From assembly GCF_024055725.1 (NCBI RefSeq), contig NZ_JAMXMX010000029.1:1-64000 (forward strand): a stretch of 64,000 nt of DNA, written 5' to 3'. The position numbers and the translations under genes are program-made. Origin of the DNA: Actinoallomurus spadix (GTDB lineage: Bacteria > Actinomycetota > Actinomycetes > Streptosporangiales > Streptosporangiaceae). Below, in pieces: positions 40,799 through 58,409 of the stretch (its first letter is position 1; every line of letters begins with the position of its first letter). The notes beneath the pieces are model-generated. The model was not told the origin of the DNA. It searched no databases and saw only the letters and a list, made by a program, of their open reading frames with translations.

Positions 40799-42754
40799 CT
40801 ACCAGCCGGGGTTCTCCGGCAGTGCCAGCGAGAGGTACTTGCCGTCCTCGGAGATCATCACGCCCAGCCCGCAGCAGTCGTCGAGGAAGCCGGTGACCTC
40901 GCCGAGTGACAGGTCGAATCCCCGGTCGAGCAGCGACTGGTGGACGCGCTTGCCGGCCCGCGCGGTGTCGCCGCACGCCTCGTACGCCTCGGCCTGCCAG
41001 CCGTGCAGCACCGCCTTCCGCGGCCGGCCCGAACGGGTGTCGAGGATCTTCAGCCTGCCGGGGAGGCGCTCGTAGAAGAGCACCGGCCGGTCGCCGCTCG
41101 CCCATCTGCGCTTCCACTCCAGGGCCGCGGACGTCAGGAGTTCGTGGCTGTCCGCGGAGGCGACGTCCGGGGCTTCGAAGTCGAAGAAGTAGGCGATCCG
41201 CGAATGGTCCAGCTCGGGCGGGTAGACGTACGCGTAGCTCGCCTGCGGGCGGACGCCGGAGATCGCGAATGACGGGTCCGTGAAGTAGGGGCTGAAGCGT
41301 TCGAGCCAGATGCCGAGCTGGCCCGTGGGCGGTTGCAGGTGGTGCAGCAGCGGGACCAGCGCGGCCTGCTCGATGTAGTCCTGGTCGGTCTCGCCAGGGA
41401 AGCCGCGCAAGATGTGCCATTCGGTGGAGATGCCGTAGTAGCACGCCCATTTCAGCAGCCGGACGTTGATGAGCCTGCTGGAGCCCTTGCGCATCAGCCC
41501 GAGAACGTGGGTGCTCAGGTTCTCGATGCCGGGCTGGATCCGCCGGATGCCGGCCCGTCGCATGAGCGCGAGCTGCTCGCGCGTCAGGTTCGCCTTGACC
41601 TCGAAGAACAGGTCGAGGTCCCAGCGCCGCTCCGCCAGCTCGGCGCAGAACGAGGACAGGTACGCCATGTCGAGGATGTTGTCGACCGCGTCGACGCGGC
41701 GGACCGGATGGGATCGGAGGAGTCCCTCCAGGTCGGCGAGCGCCCGCCCGCCGGCCCTGCTGCGGTAGTTCATGCCGAGGGCGTTCAGGCCGCAGAAGGT
41801 GCAATGGTGCTTCTGCCCCCACCAGCAGCCCCGGGAGAACTCGACGAGCAGCCGCACCTCGTCCTCGCCCAGGACGCGTGACCGGTCGTGCCGCTCCAGG
41901 GTGCGGAAATAGTCGTCGTAGTCGGGTGCCGGAAGGGTGTTCAGGTCGTACGTGCGCGCGGTCTCGCCGACGTCGTCGTGATCCGCTCCCTGGCGGCGCA
42001 CGCCGGGGATCGGGCGGGACACGCCGGCGGCGAGGTCGTGCAGCAGCGCGGGCAGGGCGATGTCGCCCTCCCCGGACACCACGTAGTCCAGCCACGGCAG
42101 TTCCTCGGCGTAGGCGATGCCCATCCCGCCGTCGAAGTTCGCGCCGCCGTAGATCAGCGGCAGGTCCGGGAAGCGGTCCTTCAGCCGGCGTCCCAGCGCG
42201 AGGGAGGCGGTGTTCTGCAGGAACGTCGAGGAGAATCCCACGGCGTCGTAGGAGGACCAGTCCACCGAGTCGAGGCAGCCTTCGATCCAGGCGGGCAGGA
42301 CCTCCCGGCGGAAAGTGATCAACTGGTCGGGGCCGTTCTCCAGGACCTTCGACCAGAACGCCGGCACCTCCGGGTACTCGGCGAAGTAGTCGGCCTCCGG
42401 CCGGATCTCCCCGAAGGCGGCGTAGGAGAACAGCCACTCGCCCAGCTGGTGGAACCGGTCGTCGTTCATCCGCGCGATCCGGTCGTAGATCCCGTTGCCC
42501 AGCAGTGCGCTCAGCTCGAGGTTGAGATAGAGCACGTCACAGTGGTGGCCGGCCCTCTTGACGATCGCCTGCAGCAGACCGCACTGGATGGAGGGCGCGT
42601 CGACCCAGCACCACGGCATGTTGACCAGGGCCACCCGGAGGGGCCGTGGCGGGGGCCCGGGAACCGGTGCGGACTTATCCTTCGGCGCCAGTGGCAGCAT
42701 TCTGGTCCTCGCCCCGGTTCCCGCCGGGTCACCGGCGCCGGCCCTTGGGTGCAA
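40799..42754 (-). CDS. B12-binding radical SAM RiPP maturase 1
   Basis: A 651-aa enzyme with an N-terminal cobalamin-binding region (about 38-245, including GFSSTFLQNTASLALGRR and IYGGANFDGGMG) and a radical SAM domain whose cluster motif is Cys310-x7-Cys318-x2-Cys321 in RGCWWGQKHHCTFCG. The long CX7CX2C spacing and RGCWWG context match the family I know as RiPP maturation radical SAM protein 1 (TIGR03975), found beside TOMM/bacteriocin genes and expected to C-methylate or otherwise alter peptides. TTG 42754 is preferred because AGGAGG lies five bases upstream. Downstream of the second radical SAM gene in the same direction, 34 bases apart. Confidence 0.85.
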   Translation of the reverse strand: MHPRAGAGDPAGTGARTRMLPLAPKDKSAPVPGPPPRPLRVALVNMPWCWVDAPSIQCGLLQAIVKRAGHHCDVLYLNLELSALLGNGIYDRIARMNDDRFHQLGEWLFSYAAFGEIRPEADYFAEYPEVPAFWSKVLENGPDQLITFRREVLPAWIEGCLDSVDWSSYDAVGFSSTFLQNTASLALGRRLKDRFPDLPLIYGGANFDGGMGIAYAEELPWLDYVVSGEGDIALPALLHDLAAGVSRPIPGVRRQGADHDDVGETARTYDLNTLPAPDYDDYFRTLERHDRSRVLGEDEVRLLVEFSRGCWWGQKHHCTFCGLNALGMNYRSRAGGRALADLEGLLRSHPVRRVDAVDNILDMAYLSSFCAELAERRWDLDLFFEVKANLTREQLALMRRAGIRRIQPGIENLSTHVLGLMRKGSSRLINVRLLKWACYYGISTEWHILRGFPGETDQDYIEQAALVPLLHHLQPPTGQLGIWLERFSPYFTDPSFAISGVRPQASYAYVYPPELDHSRIAYFFDFEAPDVASADSHELLTSAALEWKRRWASGDRPVLFYERLPGRLKILDTRSGRPRKAVLHGWQAEAYEACGDTARAGKRVHQSLLDRGFDLSLGEVTGFLDDCCGLGVMISEDGKYLSLALPENPGW

Positions 42755-42788
42755 TTTCTCCTCCTCTGCGAAAGAGCGCCGTGCGCGC

Positions 42789-44936
42789 TCAGATGTCGCC
42801 GTTGAGCCGCGCGGTGAGCTTGATGAGCGCCCGCAGGCGGTCGCGGGTCAGCCCCTGTCCGGCGACCGGGATGGTGAACGTCGTGCCGGAGGGCAGGATC
42901 GCCACCGAGCTGTCGCCTCGGCGCGCGGTGCCCCGTCCGCCGAGCCAGGGAGCGATCGACGTACTGCTCGCGCCCCCGTTGCGCTTGAGGAGGAAGAACT
43001 GGTCCCGTACGTCTTCGAAGTCGGCGAACGCCTCGATGTTGGCGAACGGGATCGTCGGGTCGGCGATCGGCAGGAGGTCGACCTGAGGGTCGTCCTGCGG
43101 CAGGCCCGGCCAGAGCCGGCGCCCGAACGCCGCGAAGTACAGCAGGGTGTGGGCCGTGTCGATTCCGCCGACGAACGGCCGGTCGTCCGACGTGCGCCGG
43201 ATGAGGCTCATGCGCTCGTCGTCGACCCGCCGGTCGATCTCCCCGGGCCACCGGTTCGCTCCCTGGGTCGTGTCCCGCCAGGGCAGGTAGCGTGCGACGT
43301 CCTCGCTCGGCGGGAGCGGGAGGATCTCGACGGCGAACGCGTCGGGATTCTTGGCGACCATGGAGCCCGGCGTCAGGGAGAACGTCCCGATTCCGGCGAG
43401 CGACCACAGGTCGTCGTGTTCGAGTAGGAAGTCGTACGTGCGGGCCGCCTCGTCGTCGCGCTCACTGGGGAACCCGGTGAATCCCATCATCTGGGCGCCG
43501 ATGTCGTTCTTGACCAGGTCGCGGAGGATGTCCGGCACGTCCGTGAGCCGCACGCCCTTGTCGATCAGGTCGAGCACGCGCTGCGACCCCGACTCGTAGC
43601 CGAAGGAGATGGCGACGCAGCCGGCGTCCTTGAGCCGCTTGGCCATGTCCCGCTTGGGAAAGGTCCGTTCCAGGCGGAGTTCGGCGCTCCAGCGGACCGG
43701 ATCGCGTAGTTCCTTCATGGCGTCGCAGAGCAGGCGGAGGTACCGCGGGGACATGGCGTCGACGGCGAAGTACACGGTCCGGCCGAACCCGGTGATCTCC
43801 TCCAGGTCCTTGATCACCGCTTCGACGGGACGCTCCCTCGACGGTGAGGTCGGGCGGTCGGAGTTCAGGCCGTAGTCGCAGAAGGTGCACTTGTTCCAGT
43901 AGCAGCCCCGCGTGGGGCTGTACAGGATCACCGGCTCCGGCGACCAGTAGGCATCCCAGTCCCAGACGTCATAGGCGGGCGTCGGCAGTTCCGCGACGTT
44001 CTCGTAGTTGATCGACGGGGCCGGCGACGTGTCCTCGCGCGTCAGCACGCCCGGGATGCCGGCGAGATCGCGCCCGTCCCGTACGGCGGTGAGGATCTCG
44101 CAGAACGGCGTCTCTCCCTCGCCGGGCACGATGAGGTCGGCGTCGGAGAAGATCCGCCAGTAGTCCCCGGGGACCCGTGCGAAACGGACGTGATCGCAGA
44201 CCTCGGTGCCGCCGAACACGATGACGGTCTCCGGGCGCCGCGCGCGGATCTCCCGCGCGAGGCGCAGCGCCATCGGAAGCTGCCCGGTGTAGGCGACCGA
44301 CAGCCCGACCACCCGCCACTCGCGTTCCCCGATCAGGTCGAGGAACGGCCCGCGGACGTAGGGGTCGAACGGCCCGGTCAGCCGGTCGATCACGGCGGGC
44401 TCGCACAGGTCCGCGTAGCAGGAGAGGTTCACCACCGGGCCCGGCAGGATCTGGAAGTCGGCGATGCTCTTGGGGACCCCGTCGAGACCGAGCAGTTCCT
44501 GCCAGCGCTTCATCGCCAGGACGGCCTGCCGGTACGTCGGATGGTGGTAGAAGGACCGGCCGTCACGGAAGATGTCGATGGCCCTGCTGACGAAGTCCGG
44601 GCTGAGCCCCTCCGCACCGAGCGCGGCGCGGTAGTCGAGCTCGTCCGCCCTGGTGAGATCGGCGGACGCCTCGATGCGTCTCCTGACCGCGGCCGCCCGC
44701 TCCAGCAGCCGGCCGACGTTCTCCGGGCGCGCCAGGTGGTTCAGCGCGTCGATGTTGGCGTCGACGCACCGGCCGCCGGAGAATCCCGCGCGCCGTGCCG
44801 CCGCCACGAGATACGGAATCGAATGATAGGGCTGAGTCGGATCGGTCAGCGGCGGATTGATCAACAGATACGGCAGGTCGCTTTCCCGGCGCCGCCGGCT
44901 GCGTATCGCAGGTCTTTCGGTCAGGAATGTGGACAC
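42789..44936 (-). CDS. B12-binding radical SAM enzyme 2
   Basis: A 715-aa protein with a cobalamin-binding-type N-terminal half (LINPPLTDPTQPYHSIPYL, then GLSVAYTGQLPMALRLA and FGGTEVCDHV) and a radical SAM domain. The cluster motif is CX4CX2C in RGCYWNKCTFCDYG (Cys345, Cys350, Cys353), one residue longer than the classical CX3CX2C. The downstream barrel has YESGSQRVLDLIDKG and GFTGFPSERDDEA. Likely a peptide or small-molecule C-methyltransferase-type enzyme of the cluster. GTG 44936 has GGAGGA four bases upstream; an ATG at 44969 lacks one. It is divergent from the precursor genes. Confidence 0.8.
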   Translation of the reverse strand: MSTFLTERPAIRSRRRRESDLPYLLINPPLTDPTQPYHSIPYLVAAARRAGFSGGRCVDANIDALNHLARPENVGRLLERAAAVRRRIEASADLTRADELDYRAALGAEGLSPDFVSRAIDIFRDGRSFYHHPTYRQAVLAMKRWQELLGLDGVPKSIADFQILPGPVVNLSCYADLCEPAVIDRLTGPFDPYVRGPFLDLIGEREWRVVGLSVAYTGQLPMALRLAREIRARRPETVIVFGGTEVCDHVRFARVPGDYWRIFSDADLIVPGEGETPFCEILTAVRDGRDLAGIPGVLTREDTSPAPSINYENVAELPTPAYDVWDWDAYWSPEPVILYSPTRGCYWNKCTFCDYGLNSDRPTSPSRERPVEAVIKDLEEITGFGRTVYFAVDAMSPRYLRLLCDAMKELRDPVRWSAELRLERTFPKRDMAKRLKDAGCVAISFGYESGSQRVLDLIDKGVRLTDVPDILRDLVKNDIGAQMMGFTGFPSERDDEAARTYDFLLEHDDLWSLAGIGTFSLTPGSMVAKNPDAFAVEILPLPPSEDVARYLPWRDTTQGANRWPGEIDRRVDDERMSLIRRTSDDRPFVGGIDTAHTLLYFAAFGRRLWPGLPQDDPQVDLLPIADPTIPFANIEAFADFEDVRDQFFLLKRNGGASSTSIAPWLGGRGTARRGDSSVAILPSGTTFTIPVAGQGLTRDRLRALIKLTARLNGDI

Positions 44937-45032
44937 CTGTTCCTCCGCGATCGCGCTGGAGCCGCCCATCGGATTAATGATCGCGAGTTTGGCATGGTGT
45001 CCAGGTAATGGGAAGTCGCGGTCATCGTGCTG

Positions 45033-45086: not shown

Positions 45087-45163
45087 TCCGGTCGTCACGG
45101 GGGTGGACGGCGGCCTGGGCGCGACATATGTTCGCGGCAGTCCCCGATCACCAGGAGGTTTGC

Positions 45164-45352
45164 GTGTCCAAGGACCCACTCGCCCCGCTCAACGCGGCCG
45201 GTCTGCAGCGGCTCCCCGAGCCGATGAAGGCCGTGTTCGAGAACCTCAGCCCGGAAGAGCTGCGGGTCGCCAGCGCCATTCAGGAAAGGCTCAACGCCGT
45301 GGCGCCGGACGTCGAAGGCCAGCAGAACGACAACAACAACTGTCTCTGCTAG
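45164..45352 (+). CDS. RiPP precursor peptide A (ends in NNNCLC)
   Basis: A 62-aa peptide with GGAGG upstream of its GTG. The leader (residues 1-53) has two predicted helices, the second with LSPEELRVASAIQERLNAV, ending in APDVEGQ. The rest, QNDNNNCLC, is the likely core: Asn-rich with a C-terminal Cys-Leu-Cys. It has no Ser or Thr after the leader, so lanthionine chemistry is impossible; Cys can serve the YcaO enzyme, the flavoprotein or the radical SAM/SPASM enzyme. Paralogue of the next gene, with three leader differences. Leader/core boundary is inferred. Confidence 0.88.
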   Translation: MSKDPLAPLNAAGLQRLPEPMKAVFENLSPEELRVASAIQERLNAVAPDVEGQQNDNNNCLC

Positions 45353-45426
45353 CGGCAATTACGGCTCGCCATTACAGGCGGATCGGCCACTGATCCGGCA
45401 GATCCTTCAATCCTCAGGAGGTACGC

Positions 45427-45633
45427 ATGTCCAAGGACCCGCTCGCCCCGCTCAACGCGGCCGGTCTGCAGCGGCTCCCCGAGCCGATGAGGGCCGTCTT
45501 CGAAGACCTCAGCCCGGAAGAGCTGCGGGTCGCCGGCGCCATCCAGGAACGGCTCAACGCCGTGGCGCCGGACGTCGAGGGCCAGACCACCGACCCCGGC
45601 AGCGGCGGCAACAACAACAACTGTCTCTGCTAG
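45427..45633 (+). CDS. RiPP precursor peptide B (ends in NNNNCLC)
   Basis: A 68-aa peptide nearly identical to precursor A in the leader (differences at residues 22, 27 and 37) with AGGAGG before its ATG. After APDVEGQ the core reads TTDPGSGGNNNNCLC: longer, with a Gly/Ser spacer and one more Asn. The shared C-terminal NNNCLC is therefore the conserved modified unit. The Asn run is encoded by AAC repeats. Duplication includes the ribosome site, so the pair arose by tandem copy. Confidence 0.88.
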   Translation: MSKDPLAPLNAAGLQRLPEPMRAVFEDLSPEELRVAGAIQERLNAVAPDVEGQTTDPGSGGNNNNCLC

Positions 45634-45637
45634 CGGA

Positions 45638-45692
45638 TCTCCCGAACCGCGCTGGCGGAATTCCCGGCCCGCCACTCCGGCGGGTCGGGAGA
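45638..45692 (+). terminator. Attenuator-like hairpin after the precursors
   Basis: Outer arms TCTCCCGA/TCGGGAGA (45638-45645, 45685-45692) enclose an inner CCCGCC/GGCGGG hairpin. Lying between precursor B and the SPASM enzyme, it could cause partial termination so that precursor RNA exceeds enzyme RNA, a frequent RiPP strategy. Confidence 0.5.
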
Positions 45693-45715
45693 ACAAACGC
45701 TGTGAGGTGGAGGGC

Positions 45716-47083
45716 ATGAGGGAGAAGGTCAGCCGATATGTGGTCGTCAGCGACCATGTCTACGGTGACGACGACGGGCTCCGGGTTTCGATCCTCTACG
45801 CGACGCGGACCGCGCAGGCGCTGTTCGTCGTGCCACGGATCGCCGACGCCGTACGGGCCGGGGATCTGGACGCCATCCCGCCGGCCACGCTCGCCCAGCT
45901 GAGACAGGCGCAGGCCGTGGTGCCGGACGGGGAGGACGAGCTCGAGGCGATCCTGGAGCGCAACCGGACCGCCGCCCTCGACACCTCGACGGCGAGCTTC
46001 ATCCTGCTGCCCACGTCGTACTGCAACATGGGGTGCACGTACTGCGGGCAGGAACACGTGCGCGGACGGCTGACCGCCGACCACCGCGACCGGATCCGCG
46101 CGCGGGTGCTGCGCGCCCTGCGGCTGCCGGCGACCCGGCACTTGAACGTCGACTGGTTCGGCGCCGAGCCGATGATGGGATACGCCGTCATCCGCGATCT
46201 CGCCCCCGACTTCGTGCGCGCCGCCGCCGAGAAGGGCGTCGACTACACGTCCGCCATGGTGACCAACGGCTCCCTGCTGAACGCCAGGAACCTGGACGTC
46301 CTCATCAGGGAGTGCGGCATAGCGAAGTTCTTCCTCACGGTCGACGGCCCGCCTGAGGTGCACGACGTCCACCGGCCGATGAAGAGCGGACGCGGATCGT
46401 TCTGGAAGATCATCCGCACCGTTCGCGCGGCGCTCGACAACGCCGACTACAAGCACGTGACGTTCGACTTCCGGACCAACGTCGACGTGCACAACCAGGA
46501 CGTGATCCACCGGTACATCGAGTTGATGGCCGAGCTGGGGTTCGCCTCCCCGAACGTGAACTTCACCCTCGCGCGGGTGCGCCCCTGGGGGAACGACGTC
46601 TCGGCCATCGAGCTGGCCGGTAAGGACTACGCCGAACGCGAGCTCTCCTGGCTGGCGGCCATGCAGGAGCACGGCCTGCCGTTCTCGCGCCTGCCCGCGC
46701 TCGCCAAGAGGATCACCTGCCCGGCGGTGAAGCGGACCGCGGAGCTGATCGGCGGCAACGGGAACATCTTCTCCTGCACCGACCACCCGCTCGTGCCCGA
46801 GGCGGAACGGACCAGCGTGCTCGCCCACATCGCCCAGGCCGACCTGCCGGACATCCGCCCCAAGGGCGAGTTCGACGACTGGCACGACGAGGTCGCGGAG
46901 GGCAGATCCTGGTGCAGGGACTGTGTCTTCCTGCCCACCTGCGGAGGCTCGTGCCCCAAGGCCTGGCACGAGGGCAATCCGCCGTGCCCCAGCTACCGGC
47001 ACAACGCCCAGGGACGGCTGGACCTCATGGCCGGGCGGCTCGGCCTGCGGCCGGTCCCGGCGGATGGCCTGATGCCGCTGTGA
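45716..47083 (+). CDS. Radical SAM/SPASM peptide maturase
   Basis: A 455-aa enzyme. Radical SAM cluster ligands Cys103, Cys107 and Cys110 form CX3CX2C in SYCNMGCTYC. The C-terminal SPASM region has many Cys (ITCPAVK, IFSCTDHP, WCRDCVFLPTCGGSCPKAW, PPCPSY), enough for auxiliary iron-sulfur clusters. SPASM peptide enzymes make thioether, C-C or C-O cross-links; with the NNNCLC core a Cys-to-Asn thioether is one possibility (inference). Start ATG 45716; an earlier GTG at 45707 is possible. It overlaps the flavoprotein gene by four bases. Confidence 0.88.
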   Translation: MREKVSRYVVVSDHVYGDDDGLRVSILYATRTAQALFVVPRIADAVRAGDLDAIPPATLAQLRQAQAVVPDGEDELEAILERNRTAALDTSTASFILLPTSYCNMGCTYCGQEHVRGRLTADHRDRIRARVLRALRLPATRHLNVDWFGAEPMMGYAVIRDLAPDFVRAAAEKGVDYTSAMVTNGSLLNARNLDVLIRECGIAKFFLTVDGPPEVHDVHRPMKSGRGSFWKIIRTVRAALDNADYKHVTFDFRTNVDVHNQDVIHRYIELMAELGFASPNVNFTLARVRPWGNDVSAIELAGKDYAERELSWLAAMQEHGLPFSRLPALAKRITCPAVKRTAELIGGNGNIFSCTDHPLVPEAERTSVLAHIAQADLPDIRPKGEFDDWHDEVAEGRSWCRDCVFLPTCGGSCPKAWHEGNPPCPSYRHNAQGRLDLMAGRLGLRPVPADGLMPL

Positions 47084-47661
47084 AGAGCCACTTCAACCTG
47101 CTCGTAGGCGCCAGCGGCGCGGCCAACGTGATCAATCTGCCCGGATACCTGATCGCGCTGCGGCGGCTGCCGCGGGTCCGGGTGCACGTCGTCATGACGG
47201 GCACCGCGGCCCGGCTGCTGCCGATCGAGACCGTACGGCTGGTGAGCGACGCGGCGTACGGCGAAGGGGACGGCAATCTCGATCCCGGCCACGCGCGGCT
47301 GGCGGCCTGGGCGGACCGGTTCATCGTGCTGCCGGCGACCGCGCACACGCTGGCGCAGGTGGCGCATGGTCTCGCCGGGAACCTGCTGACCGCGACCCTG
47401 CTGGCGCACGAGGGCGCGGCGATCTTCTTCCCGAGCATGAACGCGGCGATGTGGCGCAAGCCGAGCGTGCAGCGGAACGTCGCCCGGCTGCGGGCGGACG
47501 GATATCACGTCGCCGACCCGGTGATGGCGCCGGCCTGGGAGATCGCGAGCGAGGCCGTCCGTACCGGGCCGGGGCTGCCGTCGCCGGCGCAGGTCGCCGG
47601 GATCGTCGAAGAGATCATCACGCCGCACCTGACCGCCGTGCCGGACGAGGAGGCGCGGTGA
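47080..47661 (+). CDS. HFCD-family flavoprotein (peptidyl-Cys decarboxylase-like)
   Basis: A 193-aa flavin enzyme of the EpiD/PPC-decarboxylase family. Features: flavin-loop VGASGAANVINLPGY, active-site-type His71 in GHARLAAWADRFIVLPAT, the PATAHT motif (85-90) and PSMNAAMW (118-125). In RiPP clusters such enzymes oxidatively decarboxylate a C-terminal Cys to a thioenol; both precursors end in Cys, which fits well. GTG start overlaps the SPASM stop. No Ser/Thr dehydratase is present to supply the usual AviCys partner. Confidence 0.85.
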   Translation: MKSHFNLLVGASGAANVINLPGYLIALRRLPRVRVHVVMTGTAARLLPIETVRLVSDAAYGEGDGNLDPGHARLAAWADRFIVLPATAHTLAQVAHGLAGNLLTATLLAHEGAAIFFPSMNAAMWRKPSVQRNVARLRADGYHVADPVMAPAWEIASEAVRTGPGLPSPAQVAGIVEEIITPHLTAVPDEEAR

Positions 47662-48944
47662 TCCGGACACTGATCGCCGCGATCAAGTCGCCGCTGACCA
47701 CGGGCCCCATGGCCGTACGGGGGTTCCCCCGGCTGGTCGCCGGGCAGTTCACCTCCAGCATCGGGGACATGTGCACGGCGATCGCGCTGCCGTGGCTGAT
47801 CCTGTCCGTCTCCGGCGGGCCCGTCCTGCTCGGCTCCGTGCTGGCCTGCTACGGGATCAGCCGGGCCGTGACGATACCCCTCGGTGGCATCCTCACCGAC
47901 CGGTACGGCGCGCGCCCGATCATGTTGTCGACGGACCTGGTCCGGTGCGCGCTGACCGCGCTGCTCGGCGTGCTGGCCTACGCCGTCACCCCGTCGTTCG
48001 CGTGGCTGGCCCCCATCGCGCTCGTTCTCGGCGCCTGCGGCGGGCTCTTCGTGCCGGCCTCCTTCGCGCTGTTGCCGTCGGTCCTGTCGGACGCGGACCT
48101 GACCGCCGGGAACTCGATGTCCTCGACCGCCACCCGGCTCGGCAGCCTGCTCGGGCCGGCCCTCGGCGGCATCCTGATCTCCGCGTTCGGTCCCGGCCCC
48201 GCGCTGTTCGTCGACGCCGCGACCTACCTGGTCTCCGCGGCCACCCTGTACGCGCTCGCGGTGCCGAAGGCGAGCGCCGATCAGGACCGGGACGCGGAGC
48301 AGGCGGTGACGTTCCGCGCCGTCCTGTTCCGCGGCCGGTTCCTGCAGATCGTGCTCGTCACGGCGGCCATCGGGAACCTCGTGTACACCGGGGTCTCGGA
48401 GGTGGCGCTGCCCGCGCTCGCGCACCGCGACTACGGCGCCGGCGGGTACGGCACGATGCTCGCCGGGCTCAGCGCCGGCCTCATCGCCGGGTCGCTGCTG
48501 GCCCGCCTGGAGTGGCAGGGGCTGCGGTCGGCGTACCTCCTGGCGATCCTGGGGCTCGTCATGGGCCTGTCCGTCGCGCTGGTGCCGTTCACCGGCGGGC
48601 TCGCCGGAGCGACCGTGTGCATCACCGCCTTCTCCGTCGCCAACGGCTGGTCGGGGATCGTCCTCATGACGATGTTGCAGCTCTGGGCCCCGCGGCACCT
48701 GCTGGCCCGCGTGATGAGCGTCATGCTGCTGGCGATGTCCGGCACGTTCCCGATCTCGGCCGCGCTGTCCGGCTGGGCCGTGGACCGGCTAGGGGTGAGC
48801 GTGCTGTTCCCCGTCGCGGGCTGCGCCATCGCCGTCGCGATCCTGTGGGCCGTCACCCACTCCACCTTCCGGAACGTCAACCCCGGCGACCGGTACACCG
48901 AAGAGCTGGAACCGGTGGCCGGCACCGCCGGGCCGGCCGGTTGA
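47658..48944 (+). CDS. MFS exporter of the RiPP cluster
   Basis: A 428-aa major facilitator with about 12 hydrophobic segments. The loop between helices two and three has GGILTDRYGARPIML, the usual MFS signature. GTG start overlaps the flavoprotein stop by four bases. Probably exports the mature peptide or gives self-protection; the substrate is inferred from position only. Closest general type is drug/macrolide efflux permeases. Confidence 0.85.
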   Translation: MIRTLIAAIKSPLTTGPMAVRGFPRLVAGQFTSSIGDMCTAIALPWLILSVSGGPVLLGSVLACYGISRAVTIPLGGILTDRYGARPIMLSTDLVRCALTALLGVLAYAVTPSFAWLAPIALVLGACGGLFVPASFALLPSVLSDADLTAGNSMSSTATRLGSLLGPALGGILISAFGPGPALFVDAATYLVSAATLYALAVPKASADQDRDAEQAVTFRAVLFRGRFLQIVLVTAAIGNLVYTGVSEVALPALAHRDYGAGGYGTMLAGLSAGLIAGSLLARLEWQGLRSAYLLAILGLVMGLSVALVPFTGGLAGATVCITAFSVANGWSGIVLMTMLQLWAPRHLLARVMSVMLLAMSGTFPISAALSGWAVDRLGVSVLFPVAGCAIAVAILWAVTHSTFRNVNPGDRYTEELEPVAGTAGPAG

Positions 48945-48969
48945 AGCGATCAGAGAGGGGGAGAGGCGA

Positions 48970-52100: not shown

Positions 52101-52281
52101 TCCCTGCCTGCGCGGTGACGCCTGGTTCGAGTACGCCGTCATCTCGCGTGCGGCGGGCCGGGCGGACGAGGCGGCGTGGGCCGTCGCCGAGGCCGAGACC
52201 TGCTACACCGCGAAGGGCGCGGACCTCCCCGCGGGCGCGGCGCGTCGGTGGGCCGCGGCGGAGACGGGCGGCGCGGCATGA
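49168..52281 (+). CDS. Class III adenylate cyclase with AAA ATPase and TPR-like repeats
   Basis: A 1037-aa multidomain protein: zinc ribbon (Cys7, Cys10, Cys21, Cys24), class III cyclase domain (about 39-215) with both metal Asp (47, 91), Lys87 and VGDTVNTAARL, then an ATPase with Walker A GEPGIGKT (258-265) and a helical-repeat tail from about 590. The cyclase residues look complete, so cAMP synthesis is plausible. Such cyclase-ATPase-repeat proteins are usually signal-responsive regulators. GTG 49168 is 15 bases after the third peptide; the stop overlaps the protease start. A Gly-Asp-Pro-rich repeat (about 468-490) interrupts the ATPase part. Confidence 0.85.
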   Translation: MSDHTACRACGARLSEGHRFCPFCGAVVEVTEPGPDVRKSVAVLFIDLVDSTVLGERFDPELLHGVLRRYYGVCGDAVTAHGGVIEKFIGDAVMAVFGLPVTHEDDALRAAQAAMSIVEAVPRLAAEWRLPGLRLSVHCGVASGEVAVISGPGVDLRIVGDTVNTAARLQSAAPPGEILINAEAAHLVRGRVGLEELGPLSLKGKAEPARVWQVTPAPPEQALVRAPLIGRSAELASLTACYRQVVAERECRHVLVAGEPGIGKTRLVQEFLARIPPGEAVVLTGSCQPYGRDITFHPLQSMLRDSMPGGLPSVERLLGDDAQARRTLSAVTGGDDPGRLPAGVEEIRWAAVRLFTALAEHRPLILVWEELQWAQPMLAALIENLTGELAGLPILVVRVTRDEPPPSTGRTIRLRPLGPADTSTLVGALSSGLAEVTAQQERPAMAGIAERSGGNPLFATMLIGALADGDPAMAACGDPVTPADGEPAVPELPPTIAALLRARIDALPADEKRTLQWAAACGRDFDLDQLRALGGEGGAPSGDVARPLAGLTRRGLVHRLPSGRLQCAQQLIRDTCYGMTAKTLRARWHALLSDRAGPPGEAMYHAERSALLYRDVGPDDPRLAVLSDRAVRLLVEEGTTALHRRDTGASRSLFERALRLLTERGRRYADVTIRLSEAILARGDGDGTLRVLDEGVRRADAAHRITVGLQRDIVGFRLGRTGFDAARASLDRYEAELRDRPDDHLNWCLLHQFHGFVELSADRVGRAESAFRDALDRARRLDEPWIADRLSSALCELVQWSPTTVGEGLELCDELCRRFTADRLLLIPILTTRARLLALSGDVAGARATLASAREDASAMHAALPEIAINQSEAVLLSLLGEHTAAGGRFAEAAGMLRGQGHLQPALTLEVYAAREMLRAGREEAAARAISDLDENELVARARVWLRLLRARLACAAGRPGEGFHRARWALDALETDDPCLRGDAWFEYAVISRAAGRADEAAWAVAEAETCYTAKGADLPAGAARRWAAAETGGAA

Positions 52282-53189
52282 CGCTTCCCTGGCATCGGCC
52301 GGCCACCGAGCACTTCCCCGGCGTCCCCGCCTTCGGAGTGCCGACGTCACAGGTGCCGCTCCAGACCCTGCCCGTCGTCCACCTGGAGGATGTCACCCCC
52401 GACTGGGCGTGGGGCGGCGCCGACGGCGGCGGCATCCGGGTCTGCGTCGTCGACAGCGGGGTCGACGGCACCCACCCGCAGGTGGCGCCCGTGGACGAGG
52501 CGATGACCGTCGTCTTCGGCGAGGACGGCGACCCGAGCGTCGTGCCGACCGAGCCCATGGACACGGCCGGGCACGGCACCGCGTGCGCGGGCATCGTCCG
52601 GTCGATGGCGCCCGCGGTGTCACTGTCGTCGATGCGGGTGCTGACGGACTCGATCGCCGGAACCGGCCGGGCGCTGCTCGCGGGCCTGGAGTGGGCGATC
52701 GACGCCGGGTTCGACGTCATCAACCTGAGCCTGGCGACGCGGAAACCGGAGTTCGTCCCGGCTCTGCACGAGCTGGCCGACCGGGCGTACTTCCGGCGCT
52801 CGGTGCTGGTGGTCTCCGCGCACAACATGCCGGTCCCCAGCTACCCCTGGCCGTTCGCCTCGGTCATCTCGGTGGCCAGCCACGACCAGGGCGACCCCTT
52901 CCTGCACTACTACAACCCGTCGCCGCCCGTGGAGTTCTACGCCAACGGGGTCGGCGTCCCGGTGGCGTGGCCGGGCGGCGGGCGGACCCGGAGCTCCGGC
53001 AACAGCTTCGCCGCCCCCCACATCACCGGGCTGTGCGCGCTGATCCTGAGCAAGCACCGCTGGCTCACGCCGTTCCAGCTCAGGGCCGTGCTCTACCAGA
53101 CCGCCAAGAACGTCATCGGAGTCGACCATGCCGCTGCAGAACTACTCGCTCCCGGACACCCGCACGGACCCGACCGTGTCGCTCACTGA
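52278..53189 (+). CDS. Subtilisin-like (S8) protease, probable leader peptidase
   Basis: A 303-aa subtilase with the triad Asp59 (VCVVDSGVDGTHP), His99 (AGHGTACAG) and Ser243 (SSGNSFAAPH), plus oxyanion Asn183. No signal peptide or propeptide, so it acts in the cytoplasm. PatA/PatG-like proteases in peptide clusters cut leaders or macrocyclise; leader removal after APDVEGQ is the likely job. The ATG overlaps the cyclase stop; its end overlaps the GAF gene by 62 bases. Confidence 0.88.
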   Translation: MTLPWHRPATEHFPGVPAFGVPTSQVPLQTLPVVHLEDVTPDWAWGGADGGGIRVCVVDSGVDGTHPQVAPVDEAMTVVFGEDGDPSVVPTEPMDTAGHGTACAGIVRSMAPAVSLSSMRVLTDSIAGTGRALLAGLEWAIDAGFDVINLSLATRKPEFVPALHELADRAYFRRSVLVVSAHNMPVPSYPWPFASVISVASHDQGDPFLHYYNPSPPVEFYANGVGVPVAWPGGGRTRSSGNSFAAPHITGLCALILSKHRWLTPFQLRAVLYQTAKNVIGVDHAAAELLAPGHPHGPDRVAH

Positions 53190-53802
53190 ACGCCAGCTCC
53201 TGCACTCGGTGGTGGAGATCGCCCGCAACGTCTTCGGCGCGGCGGCGTCCTCGATCTTCCTGATCGACGATGACAGCGGAGAGCTCGTCTTCGAGGCGGT
53301 CGCGGGGGAGGGCGACGCGCACCTGCCGGGGACCCGGTTTCCCGCGGGCACCGGCATCGCCGGGTGGGTGGCGACGAGCGGCCAGCCGATGTACGTCGAC
53401 GACCTGTCCGGCAGCACGCGGTTCGCCCGAGACGCGGCGGCCTCCACCGGCTACGTGCCGGACAGTCTGATGGCCGCCCCGCTGATCCGCGGCGAGGACT
53501 GCCTCGGGGTGCTGGAGGTCCTCGACGCCTCGCAGACCTCCCGCAGCGAGCTGACCGACCTGGACCTGCTCGGGCTCCTCGCCGTCCAGGCCGCCATCAG
53601 CCTGGAGATCTTCATCCGCGCGCGCCGGCGCCCGGCCGTCCCCCGGCAGGCCGGCCCCCGCCCGGCCGCCGACGACCCGTACCTGCTGGTGGACCGCATC
53701 GGGGAGGGGCTGAGCACGGCCGACCCGGCCGCGGTGACGCTGGCGACCACCCTGCTGAAGGCCGCCGCCGACGTCGTCACCGGTGGGCGGCCGAACGCGT
53801 GA
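53128..53802 (+). CDS. GAF-domain protein
   Basis: A 224-aa protein with one GAF domain (about residues 20-170): ASSIFLIDDDSGELVFEAVAGE, PAGTGIAGWVATSGQPMYVDD and LMAAPLIRGEDCLGVLEVLD. No output domain, so it may sense a small molecule (cyclic nucleotides are typical GAF ligands) and act on a partner, perhaps the neighbouring cyclase protein. The ATG lies inside the protease gene. The C-terminal 50 residues are Pro/Ala-rich then helical. Confidence 0.8.
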   Translation: MPLQNYSLPDTRTDPTVSLTERQLLHSVVEIARNVFGAAASSIFLIDDDSGELVFEAVAGEGDAHLPGTRFPAGTGIAGWVATSGQPMYVDDLSGSTRFARDAAASTGYVPDSLMAAPLIRGEDCLGVLEVLDASQTSRSELTDLDLLGLLAVQAAISLEIFIRARRRPAVPRQAGPRPAADDPYLLVDRIGEGLSTADPAAVTLATTLLKAAADVVTGGRPNA

Positions 53803-54770
53803 CACCGGACGAGGGAAGCGTGGTCTTCTTCACGCGGGCGGCGGACGCGGAGGTGTCGGAGCTGGAACGGCTCCTCACCCTGCTCGGCGTCCCGGCCCTG
53901 CGGATCGACGCCGACGACCTCGGCTCGATCCAGGTCGAGCCGACCGTCCCGGCGACCATCCGGATCGGCGGCCGGTCCGTACGCCCCACGGCGAGCTGGA
54001 CGCGCCGGTTCTGGCCCTCCGCCATGGCGCCCGCGCGCACCCCGGTCGACGTGCTGCACCGCGACAGCTGGCTCGCCCTCGCCGCCCAGCTCGCCAGGTC
54101 GGCCCCCGCGGCGCTGCCCGGCCCGCGCCTCGGACTCCTGGAACAGCTCACGTGGGCCGCCGCGAGCGGAGTCGGAGTCCCGGCGACCATCGTCGGCACC
54201 GACGTGGCCGGCGCCGCCGACCGGCTGCCCGGCGACCGGCTCGTCGTCAAGGTGCTGGACGCGCACTTCGTCGAGTCGGCGCCGGGAACGCTGCACGGCT
54301 TCCTCCCCTGCGTCCTGCCGCGCGCCGAGATCGCCGGGCTCGCCGCGACCTCGAGGATCCCGCTCGTCGTCCAGGAGTACGTGCGGCACACGGCCGAGTA
54401 CCGCGTCTACGCCATGCGCGGCGAGCTGATCACCTTCGAGGTGCGCAAGCCCACGCCGGACGCGATCTGGCGGGATCCGGACACCGTCGCCGTCCGTGCC
54501 GTGGCCGCTCCCGCGGACGTGGCCGCGGCCGTCACCGGGCTCGCCGAACGCTGGCGCCTCGGCTACGGCGCGTTCGACGTGCTCGCGACCGACGGCGGCG
54601 CGGTGTTCCTGGAGGTGAACGCCGACGGCGACTGGCGATGGTACGAGGCCAAGGCCGGTGTCCGCACGGTCAGCCGGGCGCTCGCGCTGATGCTCCGCGA
54701 CCTGCACACCGCCTGCGGCGGAACGGTCAGGCGGGCCGGGTTCGACCTGCTGACGGTGATGGCCGGGTGA
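53799..54770 (+). CDS. ATP-grasp peptide ligase-like enzyme
   Basis: A 323-aa ATP-grasp protein. The N-terminal ASWTRRFWP resembles the VWYRR motif of MvdC/MvdD-type RiPP ligases; ATP-binding segments are RLVVKVLDAHF near 147 and IPLVVQEYVRHTAEYRVYAMRG, and the metal site is AVFLEVNADGDWRWYE near 270. Such enzymes form ester or amide cross-links with Asp/Glu or add amino acids. GTG overlaps the GAF stop, and its own stop overlaps the YcaO start. Its reaction here is unknown. Confidence 0.8.
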   Translation: MTPDEGSVVFFTRAADAEVSELERLLTLLGVPALRIDADDLGSIQVEPTVPATIRIGGRSVRPTASWTRRFWPSAMAPARTPVDVLHRDSWLALAAQLARSAPAALPGPRLGLLEQLTWAAASGVGVPATIVGTDVAGAADRLPGDRLVVKVLDAHFVESAPGTLHGFLPCVLPRAEIAGLAATSRIPLVVQEYVRHTAEYRVYAMRGELITFEVRKPTPDAIWRDPDTVAVRAVAAPADVAAAVTGLAERWRLGYGAFDVLATDGGAVFLEVNADGDWRWYEAKAGVRTVSRALALMLRDLHTACGGTVRRAGFDLLTVMAG

Positions 54771-56104
54771 TCACGACCGGAGAGGAGACACGCGTGGAGG
54801 GTGCGTCCGCGCTGCTGGACCTGGCCGGGCCGTACGGCGCGGTCGGCCGGCCCCGGCGGGTCAACACCTACGGCTGGATGCCCAACGAATGCGTGCTGTA
54901 CACCGCGTCCACCGGCAACCCGTCGGCCGTGACCAGGCCGTTCCGCGCCGACGCGCGCGCCGGTCACGGAACCGGCAGGGCGTACGGCGACCCAGACCGG
55001 GCGCGGCTGCTCGCGGTGGCCGAGGCACTGGAGCGCTACGCGGGTCTCGTCGCCCCCGAACGCGGCGTGATCCTGGCCTCGGCGGCCGAGCTGGGCGGCG
55101 ACGCGCTGGACCTGGACCTCATCGCGCGCTGCTCACCCCGGGAACTGCGCCGTCCGGGGTGCCCGGTCCACGCCATCGACCGGACCCGGCCGATCCGCTG
55201 GACCACGGCCACGGACCTGCGCACGGGCCGGCCGGTGCTCGTCCCGGCCGTACTGGTGTTCCTCACGTTCCCCGAGCTGGACGCCGAGAACTTCTGGATC
55301 CCCATCTCCACCGGCTGCGCCGTCCACCGCACCGTCGAGGCGGCCGCGGTGAACGCGCTGTGCGAGCTGATCGAACGCGACGCCCTCGCGTTGACCTGGT
55401 TGCTGCGGCGGCCCCTTCCGCGGCTGGCGGAGGACCGCCTGCCGGAACCGGCGCGGTCCATCGTCGCCTGGTGCGCCGACCACGGCATCGCGTCGTTCCT
55501 GTACGACGCCACCACCGACGTCGGGGTGCCGGTCGTGTACTGCCTGCAGACGGCCGAGCACGCCCCCCGCACCGGTCAGCTCGTGGGCGCGGCCTGCGGG
55601 TTCGACGGCGCCTCGCTGGCCGAGCACGCCCTGATGGAGGCCATGGGACTGCGGCTGGGGATGGAGAGCCGGCCCGCGCCGCCCCGCCGGTACGCCGACC
55701 ACCGGGTGGTGGACGACGGAGCGGCCGTGATGGCCGCGCGGGCCCGCCGCGACGCGTTCGGGTTCCTGCTCGGCGACCTCCCGGCACCTCACCGGCCCGG
55801 TGACCTCCCGGCGTCCCGTCCGCCCGGCGGTGACCCGGGCTCGGACCGCGCGCGCCTGGAGTTCCTGCTGCGGCGGCTGGCGGAGCTGGACATGACGGTG
55901 CTCCTGGTCGACCTGACGACGCGCGAACTGCGGGACAGCGGCCACGTCGCCGTCCGGGTGATCGTGCCCGAGCTGCAGCCCATGTCGGCTCGCCCGCTGG
56001 TGCAGTACCGCGCCCACCCCAGGCTCCGCACGGCCGCCGAGCGGCTGGGCCTGCCGCCCCTGCCCGAGCGGCGCCTCAACCCCTACCCGCAACCGATGGC
56101 GTGA
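54767..56104 (+). CDS. YcaO-domain cyclodehydratase
   Basis: A 445-aa YcaO protein that uses ATP to activate peptide backbone amides, forming azolines from Cys/Ser/Thr or other amide changes. ATP-site motifs: RLLAVAEALERYAG near residue 85 and NALCELIERDALALTW near 205. Near the C-terminus is PYPQP, matching the PxPxP tail of azoline-forming YcaOs, then MA. An unusual Gly-Asp-Leu-Pro repeat segment (about 340-365) is inserted. The GTG overlaps the ATP-grasp stop. Partner proteins follow. Confidence 0.9.
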   Translation: MITTGEETRVEGASALLDLAGPYGAVGRPRRVNTYGWMPNECVLYTASTGNPSAVTRPFRADARAGHGTGRAYGDPDRARLLAVAEALERYAGLVAPERGVILASAAELGGDALDLDLIARCSPRELRRPGCPVHAIDRTRPIRWTTATDLRTGRPVLVPAVLVFLTFPELDAENFWIPISTGCAVHRTVEAAAVNALCELIERDALALTWLLRRPLPRLAEDRLPEPARSIVAWCADHGIASFLYDATTDVGVPVVYCLQTAEHAPRTGQLVGAACGFDGASLAEHALMEAMGLRLGMESRPAPPRRYADHRVVDDGAAVMAARARRDAFGFLLGDLPAPHRPGDLPASRPPGGDPGSDRARLEFLLRRLAELDMTVLLVDLTTRELRDSGHVAVRVIVPELQPMSARPLVQYRAHPRLRTAAERLGLPPLPERRLNPYPQPMA

Positions 56105-56706
56105 GGCCCATGGACGATGACACCGCCACGGCCGTACGAGCCGCCACGGCCGCACGCGTCGAGATCGAAGTACGAGTCGAGACCGACATACGCGTCGCCG
56201 CCGACGGCGACTTCGGCGCCGCCGTCGCCGAGGACCTGCGCCACCTTGTCGCCTCGGCCACGGAACCGGTGCGCGCGGCGTGGCCGCGGGTCGACGTCCG
56301 GGCGTCCTGGCGGGACGTCCCCGACGAGTTCGCGGCGTTCGGGGCCGCGGCGCGTCCCGCGCCCTGGCTGCCGGTCGCCGTGGCGCACCCGTACATCCGC
56401 GTCGGCCCGCTGTTCGTGCCCGGCCGTGCCCCCTGCCACAACTGCTTCCGCGCCCGGGCACGGCAGCACGAGGACCCCGTGGAGGAGGAGATCAGGCGGC
56501 GGCTCGCCGCGGACCCCGCACTCGGGGTGCGCGGATTCCCGCCGCACCAGTCCATGCTCGCCGCCGGGCTGGCGCTGGCGCTGCTGCGCGGCGAGGAGAG
56601 GGGAACGGTCGCCGTGATCGACTGCCGTACCGACGAGGTGGCCACCTGGCGCGTGGTGCCGGCGGAACAGTGCCCCGGCTGCGACGACGACGGGCCGGGA
56701 CGATGA
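56101..56706 (+). CDS. Cyclodehydratase partner with zinc tetra-Cys (E1-like fragment)
   Basis: A 201-aa protein with GPLFVPGRAPCHNCFRAR (Cys112, Cys115) and QCPGC (Cys191, Cys194), the two CxxC pairs that hold zinc in E1-like TOMM cyclodehydratase partners (the bacteriocin cyclodehydratase domain family). The Rossmann part is missing or reduced, so the usual C-protein seems split across this gene and the next. GTG 56101 overlaps the YcaO stop, matching the operon pattern; ATG 56110 is an alternative. Confidence 0.78.
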   Translation: MRPMDDDTATAVRAATAARVEIEVRVETDIRVAADGDFGAAVAEDLRHLVASATEPVRAAWPRVDVRASWRDVPDEFAAFGAAARPAPWLPVAVAHPYIRVGPLFVPGRAPCHNCFRARARQHEDPVEEEIRRRLAADPALGVRGFPPHQSMLAAGLALALLRGEERGTVAVIDCRTDEVATWRVVPAEQCPGCDDDGPGR

Positions 56707-58409
56707 GCCGTCACCCGCGCCGCAGGGAGGGACTGGCGTTCGTCCCGACCGCCGACGGTTACATCGTGGACGGCGGGCCGCGGCGGGAGCACCTGACCGG
56801 CCGGCTGGCCCGTGAGGCACTGCCCGTGCTGTTCGAGCTGATGGACGGCACCAGGACCGTCGAGCAGATCGGGCAGGCGCTCGGCGTGCCCGTCCACCAA
56901 ATCGTGGACCTGCTGGCGCGACGGGACCTCGTGCGGTTCGTGGAAGAACCGGACCCCCATCCGTCGTGGATCTTCCTCCAGCGGTCCCTGCCCGCCTCCC
57001 AGGCGGACGGGATGTGGCGGCGGCTGCGGGCCGCGCGGGTCACCGTCACCGGCGATCGCCCGGTGGCCGACCTGCTGGCCGGGGTGCTCCGCCGGTCCGG
57101 CGTCGGGACGGTCGACCGTTCCGGAGGCCCCGCGGATCTGACCGTCGCGGTGCTGAGCGGTGCCGAGGTGCCCGCCGTCCCGACATCCGGGGCCCTCCTG
57201 CCGGTACGGACGGACACGGCCGCCGTCCCGATCGGGGGAACCGACCGTGATCCGGCTCGTGCGGGCGTCACGGCCGGGATCGCCGCCGGCATCGCCCTGC
57301 GCCATCTCGCCGGGTACCGGCCGGCCGGGGACCCGGTGGCGCCGGGAGTCATCGCGGAGCCGGGGACCGTCGAGGAGGAGGCCGTCGCGGGGAGGGGCGC
57401 TCTCGCGGGGGCGGAGGCCGTCGCGGGGAAGGGCACTGCGGCAGGGCCGGGGATCGTCGCGGGGGTGGGGACCCTGACGGGGACGGGGGCCGCGGTGGGC
57501 TGGGGGGCGGCCGAGCTCCCGGCGCCCTCCGTCAAGCGGTACCTGACCGAGCGCCGCCTTCCCCTGCGGCGAAGCCCGCATCCGCTCGTGCGCACGATGG
57601 CCTGGATCCTGGCCGGCCGGCGGCTCGCGCCCGCGGCGGCGCCCGGTGGCGTCGTCCGGGCGTACCTGGTGGGCGACCTTACCGGTGGCGGCCACCGGGC
57701 CTACGCCGTCGACCTGGCCGCGGGTGCCTTGGTCGAACTGCCCGGGACGGTCAAGCCGGGCGGCGAGGGCGTCACCATGGTGCTGACCGGCGACCGCGCG
57801 TGGGTGCAGGACGCGCCCGGCGAGCGCCTGCTCTCCGGTGACACCGGTCTGCTGATCGCGCAGCTCGCCGACGACGCCAGGTCCGCGGGCTGGAGCGCCC
57901 GGACGTGCGACGCCGACGGCCGCGCGGACGTGCTCGATCTCGATCCGGACCGGGAGCGCGTGACCGCGGTCCTCGAGCTCGGCCCGGTACGGCGGGTGGC
58001 GCGCCCGTCTCGGCGCCGGCGGCGTCCACCGAGCTGGCGCTTCGGCGATCCGGCTCGGGATGTGAGCCGCCTGATGAGGCTCGCCGGCCTCGGTCTCGCC
58101 CGCGCCGACGAGATCCACCCCGCAGGGCGGGTGCGGTACGCCTGCCGCCCGCGCGGCGCGCTCGGGTGGATCGACGACTACGTGGCGGACCGGGCGCCGG
58201 AGGCCGCGGCGGTCCTGCTGTTCACCGGCGAACCGGATCTCCGTCTCGTGGTCAAGGCCGCGGTGGCGGCGGGGACGTTCCGCCTCCTGGCGGCGGGCGC
58301 GGGCATCGAGTCCGGGCTCATCGCCGGTCTCGGCGACCACGACCCGCGCGTGCTCTACGGCTGCGTGCTGGGAGACCCAGGGCGGGTTCCCGCCGCCGTC
58401 CTCCGGTGA
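56703..58409 (+). CDS. Leader-binding/E1-remnant fused to SagB-like dehydrogenase
   Basis: A 568-aa protein. Residues about 10-80 form a winged-helix leader-recognition domain (REHLTGRLAREALPVLFELM, then TVEQIGQALGVPVHQIVDLL). Residues 100-200 look like a shortened Rossmann piece (RVTVTGDRPVADLLAGVLRR). A Gly/Ala/Val linker from G-rich DNA spans about 215-273. The rest resembles SagB-type FMN dehydrogenases (AYLVGDLTGGGHRAYAVDL, later RLMRLAGLGLARADEIHP) that oxidise azolines to azoles, but its FMN contacts look poorly conserved. ATG overlaps the previous stop. Last gene of the operon. Confidence 0.7.
   Translation: MSRHPRRREGLAFVPTADGYIVDGGPRREHLTGRLAREALPVLFELMDGTRTVEQIGQALGVPVHQIVDLLARRDLVRFVEEPDPHPSWIFLQRSLPASQADGMWRRLRAARVTVTGDRPVADLLAGVLRRSGVGTVDRSGGPADLTVAVLSGAEVPAVPTSGALLPVRTDTAAVPIGGTDRDPARAGVTAGIAAGIALRHLAGYRPAGDPVAPGVIAEPGTVEEEAVAGRGALAGAEAVAGKGTAAGPGIVAGVGTLTGTGAAVGWGAAELPAPSVKRYLTERRLPLRRSPHPLVRTMAWILAGRRLAPAAAPGGVVRAYLVGDLTGGGHRAYAVDLAAGALVELPGTVKPGGEGVTMVLTGDRAWVQDAPGERLLSGDTGLLIAQLADDARSAGWSARTCDADGRADVLDLDPDRERVTAVLELGPVRRVARPSRRRRRPPSWRFGDPARDVSRLMRLAGLGLARADEIHPAGRVRYACRPRGALGWIDDYVADRAPEAAAVLLFTGEPDLRLVVKAAVAAGTFRLLAAGAGIESGLIAGLGDHDPRVLYGCVLGDPGRVPAAVLR

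Follow-up and report, generated by a model that had tools for sequence, protein, structure and literature searches.

The 64,000-nucleotide stretch of Actinoallomurus spadix DNA analyzed here, referred to throughout as the window (contig NZ_JAMXMX010000029.1, positions 1 to 64,000, from a genome of 8.0 Mb), carries at 40.8 to 58.4 kb a gene cluster for ribosomally synthesized and posttranslationally modified peptides (RiPPs). An initial annotation, made from the letters of the sequence, had proposed that B12-type radical SAM, SPASM, HFCD, ATP-grasp, and YcaO enzymes act from one operon toward one unrecognized hybrid compound class. All of the parts that it named are present, and we extend the list with two further cluster members, CycTPR (49168-52281) and a GAF-domain gene (53176-53802). 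Our reading, to which we give an even chance, is that the locus holds two linked RiPP pathways that use one leader family, with a ring made by the SPASM and HFCD enzymes on peptide A and an ATP-grasp modification on peptide B. The features are as follows.

40799..42700, minus strand: B12a, B12-type radical SAM enzyme, likely RiPP C-methyltransferase, optional gene (TIGR03975, 600.7 bits, cut-off 281.85)
42789..44969, minus strand: B12b, B12-type radical SAM enzyme (Pfam B12-binding, 32.8 bits, cut-off 32.1; Radical_SAM, 53.6 bits)
45164..45352, plus strand: preA1, precursor A, GTG start, core ending QQNDNNNCLC (NF045560, 51.7 bits, cut-off 30)
45427..45633, plus strand: preA2, precursor A, core ending TTDPGSGGNNNNCLC, tail NNNNCLC (NF045560, 52.8 bits)
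45661..45691, plus strand: 13-bp hairpin between precursor and maturase genes (folding z-score)
45707..47083, plus strand: SPASM radical SAM enzyme, proposed N-x-x-C thioether former (conserved Cys; PDB matches)
47080..47661, plus strand: HFCD flavoprotein, proposed peptidyl-Cys decarboxylase (MrsD match, E 8.6e-33)
47658..48944, plus strand: MFS transporter, proposed exporter (PF07690, 104 bits)
48970..49152, plus strand: preB, second leader-sharing peptide, tail VQGQELKLL (NF045560, 81.5 bits)
49168..52281, plus strand: CycTPR, zinc ribbon, class III cyclase, AAA ATPase, and TPR, proposed sensor or regulator (PF00211, PF13191)
52278..53189, plus strand: S8, subtilase, proposed leader peptidase (PF00082, 101 bits)
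53176..53802, plus strand: GAF-domain protein, paired with S8 (PF01590, 61.6 bits; start read from the sequence)
53799..54770, plus strand: GRASP, ATP-grasp ligase, proposed preB modifier (PDB matches; Lys-tail association)
54767..56104, plus strand: YcaO cyclodehydratase of SagD type, optional (TIGR03604, 263.2 bits, cut-off 219.25)
56101..56706, plus strand: LPBP, TOMM leader-peptide-binding partner, optional, with YcaO (TIGR03882, 54.7 bits, cut-off 36.9)
56703..58409, plus strand: E1like, putative second cyclodehydratase partner of 568 amino acids, optional, with YcaO (PbtF-like N-terminal stretch)
58446..59333, minus strand: ParB-like gene (TIGR00180, 83 bits)

All three small peptides pass the NF045560 model (aroma-sacti leader domain), in agreement with the single leader signature first proposed for them; preA1 and preA2 are similar peptides, and the tail of preB differs, ending in ELKLL and lacking Cys. 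Plus-strand genes overlap by 4 bases at 7 of 12 junctions and S8 and GAF by 14 bases, but the cluster is not one operon, since the two B12 genes lie on the opposite strand. Regarding the two proposed cyclodehydratase-type partners, LPBP exceeds the TIGR03882 cut-off, whereas E1like has no NCBIfam match or above-cut-off Pfam match and resembles PbtF at E 0.001 over profile positions 29 to 79; beyond that stretch, its E1 nature is an assumption. A match of E1like to 8vd6 was set aside as a repeat artifact, with no stretch passing alone. CycTPR scores 157.5 bits against TIGR03903, below the cut-off of 705.75.

Conservation of the cluster across genera

The SPASM protein has matches at E 1e-30 or better in 22 of 341 genomes of the family, 6 of which, the window's included, reach at least 71% identity. 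A scan of GTDB contigs recovered 26 SPASM loci, 20 at 57% identity or above and 6 at 33 to 45%, and we define the close set as the window plus those 20 (21 loci, SPASM identity of at least 57%), with loci under 57% outside it. The close set spans Actinoallomurus (2 loci), Sphaerisporangium (2), Nonomuraea (1), Thermoactinospora (1), Streptacidiphilus (2), and Streptomyces (13). A check of genome data for co-occurrence, which the initial annotation had suggested, shows the gene set recurring in other genera in the same or a divergent arrangement, and the recurrence of its core in 20 other loci bears out the view of these enzymes as a conserved unit.

The genes for SPASM, HFCD, MFS, and B12b are present in all 21 loci, with precursor A in view in 20. 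Streptomycetaceae loci are arranged as divergent operons, preA-SPASM-HFCD-MFS-B12b and preB-CycTPR-S8-GAF-GRASP, and all 14 that show both peptides (of 15 such loci) have A and B in divergent operons. Of the 20 loci that show both sides, 19 have the two peptides as neighbors. Five of the 21 loci carry the YcaO trio (YcaO, LPBP, and E1like) and 4 carry B12a, all within the Streptosporangiales set; a homology count that placed B12a in 18 of 20 loci was discarded on account of cross-matching by B12b. Individual loci differ in informative ways. That of Sphaerisporangium melleum (L079) is without preB, CycTPR, and ATP-grasp and retains the YcaO trio, S8, and GAF, and a preB module is present on another contig. 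The locus of Thermoactinospora rubra (L082) has preB and ATP-grasp, with neither B12a nor the YcaO trio, and YcaO matches elsewhere in that genome are weak (best E 1.1e-12). In Nonomuraea sediminis (L080), B12a is the sole gene missing from the locus.

Three loci (L096, L100, and L107) run into contig ends, L099 holds the B operon only as fragments, and L109, with a stop inside the frame, was excluded from the SPASM alignment and tree. The L099 copy, from Streptomyces sp. SM11, looks degraded, with no more than fragments of the ATP-grasp and cyclase genes and with MFS and B12b each matching in two pieces.

Peptide A and its proposed modifying enzymes

Counting from the C terminus (position -1), Asn(-4) and Cys(-1) are invariant in all 13 distinct A cores from 20 loci. 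One copy was counted per locus, and L096, with no precursor in view, was left out; where preA is duplicated, in the window and in A. soli, the second copy is not part of the count and likewise ends in NNNNCLC. L or V occupies position -2, positions -5 to -7 are variable, and position -3 among the 13 cores is V in 6, C in 4, T in 2, and S in 1. In cores with V(-3), the last residue is the sole Cys; a sulfur-linking SPASM enzyme and a decarboxylase of the C-terminal Cys must therefore share one residue.

The CX3CX2C motif and the SPASM-domain Cys residues are kept in 20 of 20 loci, and the best PDB matches of the SPASM protein are 5wgg (E 1.3e-11), which we take to be the thioether former CteB, and ChlB. 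The HFCD protein ranks MrsD first (E 8.6e-33), followed by EpiD (8.9e-18) and CoaBC (4.1e-12), and its His and FPxMNxxMW stretches are likewise kept in 20 of 20 loci. The B12b stretch CYWNKCTFC is identical in all 20; against TIGR03975, B12b scores only 96.7 bits, and both B12 enzymes look like C-methylases. All four B12a loci have Asn(-6), as do some loci that lack B12a, and the link is weak. The D, H, and S stretches of S8 are kept in 16 of the 16 loci with the gene in view.

Beyond the close set, seven precursors could be assigned to SPASM relatives at 33 to 43% identity, from Amycolatopsis, Actinophytocola, two Actinomadura, a cyanobacterium, and genome G519, and all seven contain N-x-x-C. 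The motif appears 12 times in them against 2.5 expected, a count that none of 20,000 shuffles reaches, and spacing 3 is the commonest (12) among Asn-Cys spacings of 1 to 7. Two SPASM relatives at about 30% identity (L072 and L075) have a short upstream open reading frame (ORF) ending in DFGC, that is, D-x-x-C with a C-terminal Cys. The G519 locus (L083) places a SPASM protein of 43% identity with YcaO, S8, GAF, and cyclase genes and, by eye, a DUF692/MNIO-like ORF; its peptides end in GGGFCW and NSGCFCCA.

Several other readings of peptide A bear consideration. An ordinary aminovinylcysteine (AviCys) peptide, its dehydratase encoded elsewhere, would be in keeping with the MrsD-like HFCD, the invariant C-terminal Cys, and the S, T, or C found at -3 in 7 of 20 loci. 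We rejected it, as the acceptor position is Asn: Asn stands three residues before Cys in 13 of 13 cores, Val occupies -3 in 13 of 20 loci, and family scans of the cluster genes, which did not extend to the remainder of the genome, matched no dehydratase. We regard this explanation as very improbable. Alternatively, the SPASM enzyme may catalyze some other reaction (epimerization, a C-C or C-N link, or a bond to another residue), with HFCD leaving a free enethiol and the Asn- and Cys-rich tail perhaps binding metal. Its reaction is inferred from sequence, and among the matches listed it falls below the cut-off of every NCBIfam model except that of the generic SPASM domain, which leaves some room for this view. 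Against it stand the invariant N-x-x-C spacing, the enrichment of that motif beside distant SPASM proteins, and the precedent of NxxcA (see below), and the single Cys of V(-3) cores argues against a two-thiol metal site; we consider it unlikely, though the least so of the alternatives discussed here.

The YcaO protein ends in LNPYPQPMA in 5 of 5 loci and is nearest to MusD, LynD, and TruD. Both components expected of a TOMM system, YcaO and a leader-binding partner over cut-off, occur in 5 of the 21 loci, each with a cyclizable C or T at -3: the residue there is C in four and T in one, and in the 15 loci that lack YcaO and show a core it is V in 13, S in 1, and T in 1 (Fisher p 0.0014 for YcaO against the -3 class, with kinship ignored). 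On the tree, this corresponds to 2 changes of YcaO state, 1 change of -3 class, and 1 to 2 independent pairs; as that approximates one event, the covariation agrees with YcaO action at -3, but we did not accept it as independent proof. No Cys, Ser, or Thr is found in any of the 19 B tails of the close set, which makes peptide A the likelier YcaO substrate, and we think it somewhat probable that YcaO acts on peptide A at -3. More widely, YcaO occurs in 46 of the 341 family genomes, and beyond the five close ones a family at 36 to 44% identity is common.

These data also bear on the idea that two unrelated clusters merely abut, with SPASM, HFCD, and B12 enzymes acting on preA and YcaO plus ATP-grasp on preB. 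The window's YcaO gene does adjoin ATP-grasp in the preB part, and A and B form divergent operons in Streptomycetaceae. However, the S. melleum locus has the YcaO trio in the absence of preB, CycTPR, and ATP-grasp, even though a preB module lies on another contig; moreover, the 19 B tails offer no Cys, Ser, or Thr, and A adjoins B across genera. We judge this reading improbable.

Peptide B and the ATP-grasp ligase

NF045560 peptides near a cyclase/TPR protein, mostly with S8 and GAF, are widespread beside other RiPP genes, and their tails fall into those with Lys(-3) and others. Lys tails (LKLL, LKLV, IKLL, LKVL, VKVM, FKVL, VKVV, and IKIA) were found at 28 loci with examinable surroundings, comprising 17 of the 21-locus set (by tblastn) and 11 others with an ATP-grasp match of at least 332 bits (G035, G164, G116, G182, G060, G585 contig 42, G590 contig 262, G425, G275, G377 contig 8, and G003); L100 and L107, at contig ends, were excluded from the count. 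A close ATP-grasp relative lies within 15 kb in 28 of the 28, one of them a fragment (L099), versus none at the locus in the nine with other tails, such as GALF, GLLF, and GLW (G008, G016, G020, G010, G350, G077, G128, G261, and G377 contig 24). Eight of the other-tail genomes have a best ATP-grasp match of about 90 bits or less, or none; in the ninth, G377, the strong match adjoins that genome's own Lys-tail locus.

The ATP-grasp protein scores 67.7 bits against TIGR04187, under the cut-off of 350, and is nearest in the PDB to CdnC, AMdnB, and the entries 5ig8 and 5ig9 (titled ATP grasp ligase), presumably microviridin ligases. Its Lys and LExN-type residues are kept across 11 aligned rows.

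The association with Lys tails is what decides against one true hybrid, in which every modifying enzyme, ATP-grasp included, would act on preA, with preB as a regulatory peptide or decoy. The single plus-strand run of genes with 4-base overlaps, the leader domain common to preA and preB, and the placement of A next to B in 19 of the 20 loci that show both sides all speak for such a hybrid. Yet ATP-grasp accompanies Lys-tail peptides where A is absent or elsewhere (G035, G164, G425, and others), and the preA cores of G554, G590, and G553 contain no Asp or Glu despite ATP-grasp at the locus. We rejected a single hybrid peptide as the best reading, given that ATP-grasp follows peptide B, and consider it improbable, if marginally less so than abutting clusters. 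The initial proposal of one unrecognized hybrid class stands insofar as the genes form a conserved unit and the set is undescribed in the literature searched, but action of all of the enzymes on one peptide is not supported. Separate action of the two halves on different peptides, named at the outset as an outcome that would count against that proposal, is in part what the associations indicate: ATP-grasp tracks the Lys tail of B, and SPASM, HFCD, MFS, and B12b go with A.

The two peptides may also differ in amount. The hairpin region downstream of preA2 (45634-45706) folds at a z-score of -3.23; of eight other loci folded at that place, seven give -1.94 to -4.36 and one, L108, gives -1.06. 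For the gap before preB, folding is no stronger than in shuffled sequence. Between the end of preB and the CycTPR gene there are 15 bases, too few for a hairpin like the one after preA, and this fits the interpretation that A is a bulk product and B a scarce peptide, for example, a signal. Promoter and terminator scans gave results near chance, and a DNA motif guess gave no result.

B modules also occur in other company. Those with GALF- or GLLF-type tails in L055, L050, L042, and L052 have class III LanKC-like genes nearby, identified in L055 by NF038151 (730 bits) and in the other three by sequence clustering, and short radical SAM genes are found near the B modules of L055, L050, and L042. 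CxC sactipeptide-like precursors (CLCGAW, CMCGAW, and CACGLW) occur in L048, L131, and L130, accompanied by an FAD enzyme, a small PqqD-like protein, and an StsB-like maturase that scores 889 bits in L048; two of these sets, those of L048 and L131, are divergent to a Lys-tail B module.

Proposed two-pathway model, known systems, and neighboring genes

The observed gene content, conservation, motif invariance, and gene-peptide associations lead us to the following scheme. On peptide A, the SPASM enzyme would attach the sulfur of Cys(-1) to Asn(-4), with the beta-carbon as the probable site, and HFCD would oxidatively decarboxylate the same Cys, giving a four-residue ring with an aminovinyl thioether on Asn, AviCys-like and formed with no dehydration. 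HFCD chemistry requires a free thiol, so the likelier order is that decarboxylation comes first and an Asn radical or dehydro-Asn then captures the product. B12b would C-methylate some position of the core, with B12a as an optional second methylase, and in the window's lineage the YcaO trio may convert Cys or Thr(-3), inside the ring, to an azoline. Leader removal by S8 and export by MFS are predicted to follow. On peptide B, the ATP-grasp ligase would use Lys(-3) in the tail ELKLL, the simplest product being a side-chain amide with Glu or Asp(-5), and CycTPR and GAF probably sense or regulate.

Several observations weigh against this scheme. Its chemical steps, their order, leader cleavage, export, and regulation are predictions. 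The best NCBIfam match of the SPASM enzyme, TIGR04463 at 177.4 bits, is under the cut-off of 525, and the free-thiol requirement of HFCD constrains the order of the steps. The seven distant precursors were chosen by eye among short ORFs that lie near the SPASM gene and have Cys at their ends; two of them, from Actinomadura, are close kin, two share one locus, and over 11 kb separate that of G519 from its SPASM gene. Spacing 4 is the second commonest among them (8), no such peptide was found at two of the eight distant loci (L084 and L109), and SPASM proteins at 28 to 33% identity have mixed upstream peptides (some ending in DFGC and one containing NCNC), with none found at many loci. The pattern linking YcaO to position -3 approximates one event, and T or S(-3) occurs in 2 loci without YcaO. 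For peptide B, the ATP-grasp counts (28/28 versus 0/9) ignore kinship, and the acid partner is not fixed: Asp or Glu(-5) is present in 25 of the 28 Lys-tail loci and absent from G275, G377, and G003.

Known systems share parts of the set. The graspetides of microviridin type may resemble the B pathway in the ATP-grasp nearest to CdnC and AMdnB and in the Lys and nearby acid of the B tail; they differ in that the TIGR04187 cut-off is not reached here, the tail is very short, and the leader belongs to the NF045560 family. The StsA/StsB sactipeptides of actinomycetes (NF045559 and NF045574) share the NF045560 leader domain, and an StsB-like set or relative adjoins the Lys-tail B module in G425 and G590, but the 25 best models listed for the window's SPASM enzyme do not include StsB. 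We rejected an ordinary StsA sactipeptide on the scores of the window peptides against NF045559 (15.2, 16.0, and 34.1 bits, cut-off 75). Thioviridamide-type thioamitides likewise have a YcaO and an HFCD (for the latter, PMC9415263) in one cluster. The cluster described here differs in its SagD-type YcaO with a PYPQP end and its SPASM enzyme, and the scan of its genes showed neither TfuA nor a kinase-type partner.

For the ring itself, the closest precedent is the ranthipeptide NxxcA of Streptococcus orisratti, in which, according to excerpts of PMC8326336, a beta-thioether links Cys23 to Asn20; the SPASM enzyme, N-x-x-C motif, and Cys-Asn spacing of three are shared, and a Cys-Asn S-Cbeta link also appears in part of PMC11002830. 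Unlike in NxxcA, the Cys of this cluster is C-terminal, and the accompanying genes encode an HFCD decarboxylase as well as radical SAM enzymes of B12 type. The AviCys peptides, such as mersacidin, epidermin, and cypemycin, are made by LanD-type HFCD enzymes, and their decarboxylated Cys adds to dehydrated Ser or Thr, except that cypemycin uses a residue derived from Cys (passages of PMC4979651 and PMC9415263). These share with our cluster the MrsD-like HFCD and the invariant C-terminal Cys, but the acceptor here is Asn, which is not dehydratable, and no dehydratase was recognized in the cluster.

Searches of the open-licence PMC literature, outside which most subscription papers lie, showed no paper joining SPASM and HFCD on one peptide or describing this gene set, and we claim novelty only relative to those searches. 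Since each enzyme family and the N-x-x-C thioether are already known, what is new is the combination. Of the new ideas, the one with the most support is that an AviCys-like ring would arise at an N-x-x-C terminus through SPASM and HFCD acting together, with no dehydratase; if true, radical SAM chemistry on Asn would offer a second route to an AviCys-type ring and would widen the engineering of peptide C termini. More tentatively, and less likely than not, the cluster may represent a new class comprising an Asn-based aminovinyl-thioether macrocycle made by SPASM and HFCD on one Cys with no dehydratase, an azoline within the ring in Streptosporangiales, and a coupled peptide B whose lactam, made by ATP-grasp, is a signal read by the cyclase/TPR protein. 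The gain and loss of B12a and the YcaO trio over the 21 loci provide a natural test set for assigning enzymes to residues, and peptide B, tied to ATP-grasp and the cyclase/TPR protein and found beside several other RiPP gene sets, may serve the RiPPs of actinomycetes as a common control module.

Two neighbors deserve mention. The ParB-like gene adjoins the cluster in 6 of 6 Streptosporangiales-type loci (L037, L079 to L082, and the window) and was not found in the 15 Streptomycetaceae loci; its position varies among three sites, beyond E1like, beside B12b, or beside B12a. It therefore seems to travel with the cluster in Streptosporangiales-type loci. Past the ADH gene that adjoins B12a, an apparent antitoxin-like and PIN-like pair was noted by eye at 39038-39773, and A. 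soli has the pair too.

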